Assembly (NCBI GenBank): GCA_947176535.1
Contig: CAMWQU010000009.1
Location: 1 to 64,000, forward strand
Reading direction: 5' to 3'
DNA from: an uncultured Prevotellaceae bacterium
GTDB taxonomy: Bacteria > Bacteroidota > Bacteroidia > Bacteroidales > Bacteroidaceae
DNA length: 64,000 nucleotides
Of the stretch, positions 11,298 to 23,595 are shown in pieces. The notes under the pieces are model-generated. The model had not been told where the DNA came from and ran no database searches. It was given only the letters and a program-made list of their open reading frames with translations. The position numbers and the translations under genes were made by a program. Numbering within the stretch: the first letter of the stretch is position 1; each line of letters begins with the position of its first letter.

Positions 11298-11305
11298 TAA
11301 CTTTG
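11298..11305 (+). promoter_or_regulatory. Bacteroidales -7 element TAACTTTG for RNA copy 1
   Basis: Matches TAnnTTTG immediately 5' of the conserved CAC start of the RNA. Confidence 0.65.
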
Positions 11306-11562
11306 CACGTGGATATCCGTCTTGTGCGGTATCCGTGACATAATGTAAAAGAAGCGTTTTTGCTTAATCCTTTATCCGAAAATTCGCCAAAAATTATCAG
11401 AGGGAAAGAGCAGTCAAAAAGGCGCCTCGACTTGTCGTATATCCATTCCCCGCAAGGGAACACCGATATCCGGGCAAGGCGTAGGAATGGACTGTTTGTT
11501 TCTGATTGGGCGTTTGGCGATGCCTCGGATAAGATAAACGGCACATCGTCCTACGCTTTTTT
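11306..11562 (+). ncRNA. Structured leader/small RNA, family copy 1
   Basis: 5' hairpin CACGTGGATA/TATCCGTG; TCGCCAAA (11384) pairs TTTGGCGA (11513); CCATTCC (11443)/GGAATGG (11484); GGGC/GCCT closing the conserved loop; GCGTAGGA (11479)/TCCTACGC (11549) followed by TTTTTT. Confidence 0.75.
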
Positions 11563-11630
11563 ATGTCACTTCGGTTATAAATGATGTCGCGATGAGGGCG
11601 TGGGTGACAACGGACAAACGCTGAAAGGAA

Positions 11631-11858
11631 ATGAGGCACGTTGGAAAGATGATAAAAGCCGAACTGGACAAGCACCCCAAGGCACACACCGTGACATGGT
11701 TTGCAAAAGAACTGCATTGCAAACGCACTAACGTCTATGACATATTCAACAGGCAGACCGTGGACACCGAACTGCTGCTGCGCATTTCGCGCATACTCGG
11801 GCACGACTTCTTCCGCGATCTCTCCAATGATCTGTCTGCGGAGAGCGACGCTCGGTAA
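11631..11858 (+). CDS. Small XRE-like HTH protein
   Basis: VTWFAKELHCKRTNVYDIFNRQTVDTELLLRISRILGHDFFRDLS looks like a helix-turn-helix; likely start MIKAELDK at 11649. Confidence 0.6.
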   Translation: MRHVGKMIKAELDKHPKAHTVTWFAKELHCKRTNVYDIFNRQTVDTELLLRISRILGHDFFRDLSNDLSAESDAR

Positions 11859-11970: not shown

Positions 11971-12002
11971 TTTGCTTATACGGGATATTTGTCTTAATTT
12001 TG
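11971..12002 (+). promoter_or_regulatory. Bacteroidales promoter of RNA copy 2 (TTTG-N20-TAATTTTG)
   Basis: TTTG at 11971-11974 and TAATTTTG at 11995-12002. Confidence 0.7.
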
Positions 12003-12005
12003 CGG

Positions 12006-12249
12006 TGCACAAGTTACTTGTGCGGACATAAAAGAAGCGTTTCGTGCTTTATCCTTTCAAGGGAAATCGCCAATTTCAAACAACGAAGGAGAAAAGCAGT
12101 CACCGGACGCTCACGTGTGTCGTATATCCACTCCCCGACACGGGAGGTGCTGATATTCGGTGTGGCGTGGGAGTGGACTGTTTATTTCGTTGTCGGGCGT
12201 TTGGCGATGCCTCCCTTGAAGATAAACAAGAAGTCATTCCACGCTTTTT
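12006..12249 (+). ncRNA. Structured leader/small RNA, family copy 2
   Basis: GCACAAG tta CTTGTGC 5' hairpin; ATCGCCAA (12066)/TTGGCGAT (12201); CCACTCC (12128)/GGAGTGG (12170); GTTTAT/ATAAAC; GCGTGGGA (12165)/TTCCACGC (12237) then TTTTT. Confidence 0.75.
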
Positions 12250-12305
12250 CCGTATAAATGGATTAACCGTCGAATCGGGAATGGAGGAGACACCGAAAAA
12301 CTGCT

Positions 12306-12773
12306 ATGAAGAAAAACTTCAGGTACCTTTTGTTGCTGCTCGTTGCAGCATGCAGTCTGAGCCTCGTTTCGTGCGATGGCAACGACGATTCACTGTCGCC
12401 GGACGATAGAGTCCGCTGTGCGACCGTCTCTATTGCGGAGAAAGACGGCTACATCAGTCTGAACGACGATGTCATCCTCATGTTTCTGGACCGGAACGGT
12501 TGGTCGCGCACCATCTTCTTCGGAAGCTCCGGCGCAAACAGGCTCGTCTATATCCCGGAGGCGGAATCGCTGGACATGATTCGCACGGTTCCCACTACGG
12601 GCTGGAGCGAGAGTTGCTACCTGAGCGGGCATTACGTCGATGGCGGCTACCTTGGGGAGTACACGACCCCGCAGGGCAAGCCGGTTTACATCAGGATGTG
12701 GATTACTTTTGCCCGGACTGCTGACGGCGGCCTTTCGTCGGTCACCGTCAGTTGGCAGCACTTTGCGCCGTGA
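12306..12773 (+). CDS. Lipoprotein of unknown function
   Basis: MKKNFRYLLLLLVAACSLSLVSCDGNDD lipobox; 155 aa. Confidence 0.7.
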   Translation: MKKNFRYLLLLLVAACSLSLVSCDGNDDSLSPDDRVRCATVSIAEKDGYISLNDDVILMFLDRNGWSRTIFFGSSGANRLVYIPEAESLDMIRTVPTTGWSESCYLSGHYVDGGYLGEYTTPQGKPVYIRMWITFARTADGGLSSVTVSWQHFAP

Positions 12774-12863: not shown

Positions 12864-12936
12864 TTCATCGGCGGCGGACGGCCGTTCGTCGTCGATGAAT
12901 GTACAGCCGTCGTCGATGAATGTCCGTTCATCGACG
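12864..12936. repeat. Short direct/inverted repeat cluster (CGTCGATGAA)
   Basis: CGTCGATGAA at 12890 and 12911 (period 21), inverse TTCATCGACG at 12927 and TTCATCGGCG at 12864; 10-bp perfect stem 12911-12936. Confidence 0.7.
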
Positions 12937-13019
12937 GTGAACGGAGAATGCGTGCCGACGGTTGCAAGAATGTATTTCCACTTTTCCCGAAAATTCTTGC
13001 GCGAATGGTAAAAATATCT

Positions 13020-20440: not shown

Positions 20441-20569
20441 GCCCCGTATGGGCGCGTTTCGGTCCCGCTATGGACGCGCCCTCGACAATACTATTGTCTG
20501 CCCTCCGTCCCGCTATGGACGAGAGCCCGTCCATAGCGGGGCTGCAAACCGGCTCCGCACCGCGTGTGT
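20441..20569. repeat. Dyad array 2 = left 128-bp direct repeat (20442-20569) of the lgt-mutS cassette
   Basis: GTCCCGCTATGGAC 20462, GACAATACTATTGTC 20484, GTCCCGCTATGGAC 20507, GTCCATAGCGGGGC 20529; partner repeat at 23468-23595. Confidence 0.9.
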
Positions 20570-20688: not shown

Positions 20689-20696
20689 TAACTTTG
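20689..20696 (+). promoter_or_regulatory. -7 element TAACTTTG for RNA copy 3
   Basis: TAnnTTTG just 5' of the (G)CAC start, as in the other copies. Confidence 0.55.
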
Positions 20697-21035
20697 GCAC
20701 TGGATATGGAAGTCCTGTGACTGAAATACCCGCAAGATAAGGCTAAAGTTGCTTGTCCTGATATCGAAATCGCCAAAATAATCGCTGAAGGATATTGCAA
20801 TCTGACGCTCCTCTTTTTCATCTTTGAAGAAGAGCCATTGTATCACATCCATCAGGAGTGATGCATATTTAGGCTTTAATTCATGGTGAAATTGGGGAGT
20901 GGCCGTAACGGAATCTGAATCAACCCAGATACGAGACGGCGTAATGGTTGTATTTTCTTCAGCTTTGCACCTCAGCGAGGTGTTTGGCGATGCCTGATAT
21001 CGGTGTAGAGCGAGTAAGTCTCCTTTACGCCTTTT
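20697..21035 (+). ncRNA. Structured leader/small RNA, family copy 3 (divergent, longer)
   Basis: CACtGGA/TCCtGTG 5' hairpin; ATCGCCAAA (20769)/TTTGGCGAT (20983); AGGT/GCCT closing the conserved GTTTGGCGAT loop; GGCGTAA (20938)/TTACGCC (21025) then TTTT. Confidence 0.65.
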
Positions 21036-21108
21036 CTTGTGTCCAATCGTTACTGAAATTGCAGGAAATAGAGACTTGTTCCGGCAGTCATAATAATACT
21101 ATAAATCA

Positions 21109-22125
21109 ATGAACCAATCATTAGCAACATTTGGTTTGACCAAGGAACAGCTTCAGATCCTGTTCAGTTTAGAATGTCATATGGTGAACAAGGATCGCTA
21201 TGTCAAAGAGCGGTTTGTAGACCATATCAATCCATTGGTAGCCGACAACTCAAAGAAAAGCACATGGTATGTTGCTTTTCAGCGTAATCTTTCCAACTAT
21301 CTTATAGAGCAATCTCCAGAAGATAAATGGAACTCCATTCTTGCTCCGGAAGAGATACACCAACGAATCATTCAAGTATCGGCAACATCAGATACTGAAA
21401 TGTGGAAATATTTAATATTGTTGGAATGTGTTTTGTTTAGGCCTTATTTCCCAATGAATGAAGCTGACCAAAAAGATAAAAGATATAATGGGCTACGTTT
21501 CGATACCGAGACAAGAAAGCAAAGTCTTTCGGTTATTGCGGCATGGCTTGAGGTAGATGTTAAATATGTAGAACGGTTCGAAAACAGTTTTAAGAAGAAC
21601 ATAAAAAAGATGACGGGGTATTGGAATAAAGTACTCATCAGTGTAAGTGCCGGTGTAGCTGCGGCTGTTCTCGCTGTGGTAACTTGTGGTAGTTCAATAG
21701 CAGCATTCTTTGCAGCAGAAGGACTCTATGGTGCTGCTGCCGTAAGTTCCGGATTAGCCGCTCTCGGAGGTGGCGCAATTGCTGTTGGAGGGTTTGGAAT
21801 GGCCGGTGGAATGGCTGTTCTTGTCGGCGGAGGTGTGCTGCTTGGCCTCGGTGCCGGTGGCTCTGTAGGTATGGCAATTGCTTCTACCTCACCAAATGCT
21901 GTTTTGGGGGAGAATGCAAAGTTATGGGTTGTGCTTAAAGAGATTGTGATGGGAATCTTCAATGATACAAAACGTGCTCAGGATATTATCAGTACCTTAG
22001 CCGATAAAATTATGGCACTAAAGGAAGAAATTGCCCTGCTCAAGGTTCAACAAGAGGTGAATAAAGAAAGAATAAAGAACCTTGAGAAGTCTGTTTGCTA
22101 TATGGAGAAGATGATGAAAGCATGA
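21109..22125 (+). CDS. Accessory membrane protein with glycine/alanine-rich glycine-zipper-like hydrophobic region; function unknown
   Basis: Helical N-terminal half, then VSAGVAAAVLAVVTCGSS...GLAALGGGAIAVGGFGMAGGMAVLVGGGVLLGLGAGGSVGMAIA, then C-terminal coiled coil. Confidence 0.75.
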   Translation: MNQSLATFGLTKEQLQILFSLECHMVNKDRYVKERFVDHINPLVADNSKKSTWYVAFQRNLSNYLIEQSPEDKWNSILAPEEIHQRIIQVSATSDTEMWKYLILLECVLFRPYFPMNEADQKDKRYNGLRFDTETRKQSLSVIAAWLEVDVKYVERFENSFKKNIKKMTGYWNKVLISVSAGVAAAVLAVVTCGSSIAAFFAAEGLYGAAAVSSGLAALGGGAIAVGGFGMAGGMAVLVGGGVLLGLGAGGSVGMAIASTSPNAVLGENAKLWVVLKEIVMGIFNDTKRAQDIISTLADKIMALKEEIALLKVQQEVNKERIKNLEKSVCYMEKMMKA

Positions 22126-23363
22126 GTAAAGATGTGCCTTATATAAAAAACCTAAAGATTGAATCCTCGATAAAGAACGTCGAGGACTCAATCTCTGATA
22201 CGTTGTCTTCTTGTTCGGAATTCAGCGAGGTTGTCAATGTAGATGATGTAATTATTAGCAATCTTGAGACAAGAATTGCAGCTCTCATGACAAAAAATGG
22301 GATACCGCAACCTGAAAAAGAAGAAAAAACAAGCCATGTTAAATGTGAGACATCCGAGAAAGTACAAAAGACAGATATTCTACAAATAGATTGTGACTTA
22401 GTGGTATCTTGTGTCGCAGGAGGCTTGGCTGTATTGGTAGACTTCCTTGTTGTTAGAATCCCCAAAACAACAAATATAGTACGATGTGGAAAAGTTATTA
22501 ACCAGCAAGGAAGCCCGATGACTGAGGCTTTACGTAAAATAGGTTTCACGTCAGACGGTAAAACTGCCGGATGGGTTAAAACCTTAGAGTCTTTCTTTGG
22601 AGTTAATTACGATACATCTATAATAGCTGGAGAGAAAGGTTTTACTCCAAGGTCTCATCGATTGTACAGTCTGGCTCATGATCCTTCTCCTTCGGGCTTG
22701 TTATGGGCGTTAAAAGATGCTATAACCGGGACTACAAGCTATATTTCTCAGGACGGCATTCTCAAAAGTATTCCTACCAAACACGTCAGCGTATGGCGTA
22801 TTTTTGCGACACCTGTAATATGGATGGGACATATTCTTTCGGACATTTTTACAAAAGCAGGTGTTCCTATCCCAGGAAGTTGTCTCTTACGTACTCTTCA
22901 ATTCGGATCATTTGGAGAAAAAGGACGCACCATCGGCCAAGTAGTGGAGTATATGTATCTCGAAGGATATGATTTGCGCCATCTTGCTACTATGGCAACT
23001 GAGAAAGCAGTATTAGAATTTATAATTCGAGTATATCACTACCTTACGAAACCAACAATAGAGCAATTTGCCCGGCCTCAAGCTCTCATCCATATTGATT
23101 TAGAGAAACAGAACCGTCGGTTACAGAGTATGTGCCTGCAGGCATATGTGGTAGCCTCTTGTGGTAACGTAGCCAAACTTGCAATTTACCAATGGAACCC
23201 CACGGCACTTAATTTATCGGTATGGGTAGCCTTTTTCCGAACGGCTGTGACTGAATACAATCGGCGACATGGTTCAATGCAAGATGTTCTCGATACAATA
23301 GAGCAGCGTCAAATCATCAATGATCAATTTGATGCTATTGAGGCTAAATTAAATATGATCTAA
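22122..23363 (+). CDS. Accessory protein of unknown function, translationally coupled to the upstream gene
   Basis: MSKDVPYIKNLKIESSIKNVEDSI...; start ATG overlaps upstream stop (ATGA); HRLYSLAHDPSPSGLLWALKDAITG core. Confidence 0.75.
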   Translation: MSKDVPYIKNLKIESSIKNVEDSISDTLSSCSEFSEVVNVDDVIISNLETRIAALMTKNGIPQPEKEEKTSHVKCETSEKVQKTDILQIDCDLVVSCVAGGLAVLVDFLVVRIPKTTNIVRCGKVINQQGSPMTEALRKIGFTSDGKTAGWVKTLESFFGVNYDTSIIAGEKGFTPRSHRLYSLAHDPSPSGLLWALKDAITGTTSYISQDGILKSIPTKHVSVWRIFATPVIWMGHILSDIFTKAGVPIPGSCLLRTLQFGSFGEKGRTIGQVVEYMYLEGYDLRHLATMATEKAVLEFIIRVYHYLTKPTIEQFARPQALIHIDLEKQNRRLQSMCLQAYVVASCGNVAKLAIYQWNPTALNLSVWVAFFRTAVTEYNRRHGSMQDVLDTIEQRQIINDQFDAIEAKLNMI

Positions 23364-23466: not shown

Positions 23467-23595
23467 CCCCCGCATGGGCGCGTTTCGGTTCCGCTATGGA
23501 CGCGCCCTCGACAATAGTATTGTCTGCCCTCCGTCCCGCTATGGACGAAGCCCCGTCCATAGCGGGGCTGTAAACCGGCGTCGCGCCGCGTGTGT
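23467..23595. repeat. Dyad array 3 = right 128-bp direct repeat (23468-23595) of the cassette
   Basis: 118/128 identity by eye to 20442-20569, same orientation, no indels. Confidence 0.9.

Follow-up and report, generated by a model that had tools for sequence, protein, structure and literature searches.

Three copies of a predicted structured RNA element lie on the plus strand of the window, a stretch of 64,000 nucleotides from an uncultured Prevotellaceae bacterium (contig CAMWQU010000009.1). In each copy, the RNA begins only a few bases past a -7 box of the Bacteroidota type (TAnnTTTG) and runs to a T-rich tract. Copy 1 follows the -7 element TAACTTTG at 11298-11305, identified by its sequence, and its leader RNA extends from 11306 to the end of the U-tract at 11562. 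The gene behind it encodes a small helix-turn-helix (HTH) protein (MRHVGKMIKAEL..., 11631-11858), and this gene starts 119 nt past the start of the core. Copy 2 has the -7 sequence TAATTTTG at 11995-12002 and a leader RNA at 12003-12250, and is followed by the gene of a predicted lipoprotein without a Pfam family (12306-12773). Behind the lipoprotein gene, a 31-nt inverted repeat with a 1-nt spacer and 77% complementarity occupies 12882-12944, which is possibly an ordinary terminator. Copy 3 again uses TAACTTTG as its -7 sequence (20689-20696), and its leader RNA (20697-21036) has a longer apical domain. The region behind it (21109-23363) holds two ORFs, one at 21109-22125 and a BnzB-like one at 22095-23363. 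PADLOC matched these genes to BnzB (E 2.6e-48) and PDC-M09A (E 7.6e-6), and the pair can be regarded as candidates for a Bunzi-type defence system. Direct repeats of 128 bp, 92% identical to each other (20442-20569 and 23468-23595), bracket copy 3 and the two defence-like genes, and the whole unit is placed between lgt and mutS. This arrangement suggests that copy 3 and its genes form an exchangeable accessory unit. A similar association was seen at another locus (L206, G000:C37:1500-6500), where a second long-form copy precedes another two-gene unit; the first protein appears to share the PDC-M09A profile with the 21109 ORF, and the second is Hsp70/actin-like by eye.

All three leaders fold better than their shuffled counterparts. 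Copies 1 and 2 beat all 200 shuffles (z -3.3 and -5.7, respectively), and the value for copy 3 is stronger than both (z -9.7). The covariance model R1 matches copy 1 at 11341-11561 (189 bits) and copy 2 at 12024-12249 (188.6 bits), both of which were in its training set. Copy 3 was outside the training set, yet it matches at 20735-21035 with 41.3 bits (E 3.9e-7 in the genome).

The order of segments is the same throughout the element. From the 5' end, the promoter and a variable hairpin are followed by strand a (AAAGCGTTT), X5, the 5' strand of P2, a mini-hairpin GAAAW[TCGCCAA]WTTTC that holds the 5' strand of P3, the 5' strand of P3b, X3 and E (ACGCTC..). After a variable apical region that includes D come A (GGCGTGGGA..), Y5, the 3' strand of P3b, GGY[TTTGGCGA]RCC with the 3' strand of P3, the 3' strand of P2, Y3, B (..TCCCACGC), the U-tract, element C and the start codon. 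In copy 1, strand a (AAAAGAAGCGTTT, 11347-11359) can pair with E, in what is called fold II below; alternatively, it forms helix P1 of fold I with the T-run and the adjoining 3' end of B. The 5' strand of P2 (11371-11379) finds its partner at about 11525-11532, TCGCCAA of P3 (11384-11390, within GAAAW[..]WUUUC) pairs with TTGGCGA at 11514-11520, and ATCAGA of P3b (11396-11401) pairs with TCTGAT at 11501-11506. Strand A (GGCGTAGGAATGG, 11478-11490) is complementary to E and D in fold I, and to B in fold II, where it forms the stem of the putative terminator. Strand B (CACATCGTCCTACGC, 11542-11556), the 3' arm of that stem, has A, a and C as alternative partners and is directly followed by the T6 tract at 11557-11562. 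Element C lies past this tract at 11596-11604, and offers either GGGCG (11596-11600) or GCGTGGG (11598-11604) as a complement to B. In copy 2, strand A (GCGTGGGA, 12165-12172) pairs with TTCCACGC (12237-12244), and the B segment TCATTCC (12234-12240) can pair with GGAATGG of element C (12278-12284), located 22 nt before the lipoprotein ATG at 12306. In copy 3, the A:B pairing is retained with a different sequence (GGCGTAA at 20938-20944, with its partner in TTTACGCC at 21024-21031), and GAGACTT of element C (21071-21077) is a perfect complement of AAGTCTC in B (21016-21022). Thus, B:C is evident in copies 2 and 3, and copy 1 has a weaker form of it.

A sequence-only reading of this DNA had drawn attention to a part of this anatomy. 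It proposed that, in copy 1, TTCCC (11446-11450) pairs with GGGAA (11456-11460), or D (CCATTCC, 11443-11449) with GGAATGG (11484-11490), or GCGTAGGA (11479-11486) with TCCTACGC (11549-11556) ahead of T6 (11557-11562), and that copy 2 keeps the three alternatives as CTCCC/GGGAG, CCACTCC/GGAGTGG and GCGTGGGA/TTCCACGC. All of these complementary segments are indeed found in both copies, and the pairings exceed chance, both in the 200-shuffle folds of copies 1 and 2 and in the comparison of A:B and D:A with permuted controls described below. They make up the 3' half of a larger element of about 250 nt, which has, beyond what that reading saw, its own promoter, a long-range core and a B:C pairing downstream of the T-run.

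Homologues were collected by a search in relatives and by a gapped pattern run over about 85,000 genomes. At least about 120 homologous loci were present among the pattern matches listed, and 64 sense matches to the covariance model were obtained, nearly all in Bacteroidales in both cases. R1 found copies in 37 of 61 relatives, and eight in the window's own genome. It was also positive in 22 of 59 near-complete genomes drawn across Bacteroidales genera, with 1-18 copies per genome, and in just 3 of 79 other genomes from a phylum-wide sample. The element is near-palindromic, and R1 also matches the opposite strand weakly. Two pattern matches resembling coding sequence (L001 and L005) were set aside, and five from the database-wide pattern search (L056, L059, L086, L118 and L139) were left out, as the structure is absent from them. 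One of the loci (L053) belongs to a genome of B. fragilis. Three IMG/VR contigs classed as viral (L140, L141 and L142) also carry the RNA in front of genes. The length of the element ranges from 170 to 340 nt in the family. Taken together, it is a predicted RNA of typically about 250 nt that occurs in several copies per genome before very different accessory genes in gut Bacteroidales.

The position of the element relative to transcription and translation signals is also a property of the family. Of 126 members, 116 have TAnnTTTG at a distance of about 60-118 nt upstream of TCGCCAA, compared with 10 matches in all in shuffled sequence. At the other end, 118 of 119 members have at least five T in the first 10 nt after B; a run of at least four T within 14 nt after B was counted in 102 of them and is absent in 17. 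The A:B stem, with a median of 9 bp, leads into this U-rich tract in almost every member. In 73 of 124 loci, the distance from the core start to the next ORF is 90-130 nt, and the start codon is usually about 50 nt beyond the U-rich tract. The genes found there are diverse. They encode predicted lipoproteins, BspA-type leucine-rich-repeat and GLUG surface proteins, small HTH proteins, OmpA-like, polysaccharide export and methyltransferase proteins and others, and many belong to no family. Homologues of the small HTH protein at 11631-11858 come after the RNA in many relatives; at one locus (L011), two similar MHIG-type small HTH genes stand in tandem at +109 and +560 from the core, and then a lipoprotein gene. 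No metabolic theme pointing to a ligand was found among the downstream genes.

Which helices are maintained was asked with a strand-pair test, in which the two strands of each member are compared with strands drawn from different members (partner permutation). The test was applied to a main set of 119 canonical members and to a compact set of 38 divergent members, which are largely other sequences. The strand tests of the main set were made without the R1 alignment; R1 contains only P2 and P3 as its structure, and alignments fitted to a model favour the model's own structure. In the main set, the best pairs are P2 (z 39.5), P3b (26.2), B:C (10.1) and A:B (8.5). Combinations of E, the apical region, A and Y5 with one another come next, and then X3:Y5 (5.7), X5:X3 (4.9), E:A (4.6) and Y5:Y3 (3.6); a z below about 5 calls for caution, because partner permutation keeps shared ancestry in the statistic. 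Most other strand combinations are near zero. In the compact set, the order is P2 (27.8), P3b (18.5), X3:Y5 (8.9), E:A (7.7), a:E (7.2), A:B (6.2), X5:X3 (5.8) and Y5:Y3 (4.2), and these eight helices of both folds include all seven top z values, although in this small set unexpected pairs reach z of about 5. The a:E helix, at 7.2 in the compact set, gives -2.2 in the main set, where strands a and E hardly vary. For P1 of fold I (a:B), z is 3.4 and 2.1, and an extension of P1 past the U-tract (ACATA/TATGT) was rejected for showing no covariation (z -0.35). The weaker helices Y5:Y3, a:B and X5:Y3 are thus not secure. Across 117-119 relatives, A:B reached z 10.7 and 8.5 and D:A 11.2 and 9.4 against partner-permuted controls, and B:C reached 12.2 and 10.1 across the family, while the control pairings A:C and D:B showed no excess over the same kind of control.

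The strongest covariation of the element is in its long-range core, P2, P3 and P3b. For P2 and P3 together, 97.6% of cells are paired (99.0% for P3 alone), and the covariation score of 0.779 compares with 0.180 for shuffled and at most 0.109 for slid strands. Every pair of P2 has compensatory changes. P3 seemed to be invariant because the first search pattern fixed its sequence; in distant members, all seven of its pairs have changed on both sides with compensation, and model matches contain variants such as CGACCAA/TTGGTCG, TCTGGTAAA/TTTACCAGA and ACTGCCA/TGGCAGT. The coordinated changes that had been noticed at a single T-to-C substitution between copies 1 and 2 are therefore one instance of a far broader covariation.

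The same test indicates that the strands are reused. A, B, X3 and Y5 each have at least two covarying partners, and since these strands are shared, A:B excludes E:A, D:A and mostly B:C, and X5:X3 excludes X3:Y5. A:B overlaps B:C in 79% of members, E/M:A in 74% (by at least 2 nt of A) and P1 in 83%. Because the alternatives share nucleotides in most members, this is direct evidence of mutual exclusion. The earlier proposal of mutually exclusive helices holds in this sense, as both folds covary in two largely separate sets; its set of alternatives was incomplete, however. The TTCCC/GGGAA hairpin is weak as an alternative partner (z 2.4), and its list lacked the long-range fold, which extends over about 200 nt and is the main competitor of the putative terminator. 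The resemblance to anti-terminator/terminator alternation likewise stands insofar as the A:B stem meets a U-rich tract in nearly all members, but the helices that alternate are only partly those described. Sequence comparison thus bears out the family, its promoter, position and U-tract, and the covariation of both folds and of B:C.

The sequence has retained the capacity for two mutually incompatible folds, one of them ending in a predicted transcription stop signal, and an on/off switch is therefore the most likely function. We consider it probable, at about 70%, that the element is a bistable leader acting in cis, which regulates the gene immediately downstream by transcription attenuation. 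While the RNA is being made, its 5' half would be the first to fold, into a hairpin, H1, in which a:E closes X5:X3. The 3' half would then form H3, in which A:B closes Y5:Y3, and its GC-rich base against the U-rich tract would act as an intrinsic terminator and turn the gene off (fold II). In fold I, the inner strands of H1 and H3 would instead pair with each other over a long range as P2-P3-P3b, together with E:A and X3:Y5. Fold I takes A away from B, so that no terminator would form and RNA polymerase would read on. The freed B strand could then use C, a short distance before the start codon, as its partner. Because C is located past the U-tract, B:C is only possible in read-through RNA, and it may tune translation. 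The long core would also exclude the X5:X3 and Y5:Y3 hairpins, because linkers of a few nt cannot span about 25 bp. Calculated energies favour fold I over a forced A:B in copy 1 (-83.7 versus -79.2 kcal/mol) and in copy 2 (-93.7 versus -78.3 kcal/mol), and in copy 2, 5' prefixes that still lack the 3' half are already calculated to form the X hairpin. As fold I is more stable but the local hairpins can form first, attenuation by default and a triggered shift to the long-range fold are proposed. The choice between the folds would be set at the P3 loops or their flanks by a trigger such as a protein, a trans-acting RNA or transcription speed. That transcription really terminates, which way the switch works, in what order the helices form and what triggers the change are inferred parts of this model. 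A terminator might also be made by P1 of fold I, whose end is likewise at the U-tract.

Other readings account for parts of these observations. One is that the element is an independent structured small RNA with a trans-acting role, that its transcription always stops at the terminator, and that the gene following it is incidental. Its own promoter and U-tract and the very variable downstream genes would fit such an RNA, as would a P3 loop whose sequence most members share unchanged, which is compatible with a trans-acting seed. However, the distance to the start codon is short and almost constant in most loci, and no TAnnTTTG was seen by eye between the U-tract and the gene in the three window copies. 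Moreover, C, past the U-tract, covaries with B, and covariation across the U-tract means that a transcript including both is needed. This makes an exclusively trans-acting RNA unlikely. About equally doubtful is a static structure without switching, such as a 5' leader with a stabilising role or a platform for a protein, in which A:B and the long-range core are present at once and make a pseudoknot. The linkers that join A to the core and the core to B are 15-20 nt long, so that A:B could coexist with P2-P3-P3b in this manner, and the P3 loops of the mini-hairpins resemble a kissing interaction. But A covaries with B as well as with E and D, and X3 with both X5 and Y5, and these helices cannot form simultaneously.

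The near-palindromic form with inverted ends (ACATA..AAAGCG / CGCTTT..TATGT) raises the idea of a MITE-type mobile element that carries a promoter and a terminator by chance, and the several copies per genome, the variable neighbours and the direct repeats around copy 3 and its genes are in line with it. Such an origin is highly improbable as an explanation, since the place of the element relative to the next start codon is fixed, B:C covaries across the U-tract, and pairing is kept while the sequence has strongly diverged. Finally, trp-type attenuation by translation of a leader peptide, for which alternative terminator and antiterminator folds are typical, can practically be dismissed, as short ORFs are in no excess (100 of 121 leaders against 94 of 110 shuffled) and strand length and sequence vary freely provided that pairing holds.

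The proposed cis-acting attenuation leader may also have a wider role. The P3 loops UCGCCAA and UUUGGCGA are identical in most leaders, and it is conceivable, though we would not expect it, that the leaders form a genome-wide Bacteroidales regulon in which paralogous leaders interact in trans. If so, terminated leader fragments or a common RNA or protein partner could make other copies adopt or leave the read-through fold, and many genes with accessory, surface and defence functions would be set together. As it stands, this leader class, of which common gut bacteria have up to 18 copies per genome, appears to gate the expression of surface proteins, small regulators and candidate phage-defence operons. 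If the attenuation mechanism is true, a large riboregulon would be added to a bacterial group with few known RNA switches, and paired mutations in the covarying alternative folds would test the mechanism directly.

Rfam 15 gave no match in the window at the gathering score and no credible match to 12 divergent members; a loose E-value search of the locus returned two chance snoRNA matches, both outside the RNAs. Structured RNAs of Bacteroidota known from comparative genomics include 6S-flavo, Flavo-1, Bacteroidales-1, Bacteroides-1 and Bacteroid-trp (Weinberg 2010, PMC2864571). Those with RF numbers are in Rfam, whereas our element matches no Rfam model. Predictions from the human microbiome contain many candidate cis-RNAs with HTH_XRE as the commonest downstream domain (Fremin and Bhatt 2021, PMC8040213); no matching motif was found in passages of its main text, and the supplementary tables may list a fragment of the element. 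Literature searches by sequence motif and topic, which covered open-licence papers apart from preprints and supplementary tables, yielded no description of it. By these comparisons, the element is a predicted cis-RNA class unlisted in Rfam.

It shares with metabolite riboswitches a structured 5' leader upstream of genes at many loci. In contrast to them, even the P3 core changes with compensation, and the most conserved positions are helical or tiny (GAAA, RCC); few of the positions conserved at 88% or more in the 64 model matches fall outside known helices. A classic metabolite aptamer is thus not evident in the alignments. The likeness to attenuators and riboswitch expression platforms is closer, and includes the presumed leader position, an own promoter, mutually exclusive helices and a GC-rich stem that runs into a U-tract. 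Unlike in those systems, no highly conserved unpaired ligand pocket was found in this element and the downstream genes have no common pathway. What further sets the element apart is that its antiterminating fold would be a long-range strand exchange between two tandem hairpins, and that the arm of its putative terminator can also pair with a segment before the start codon.
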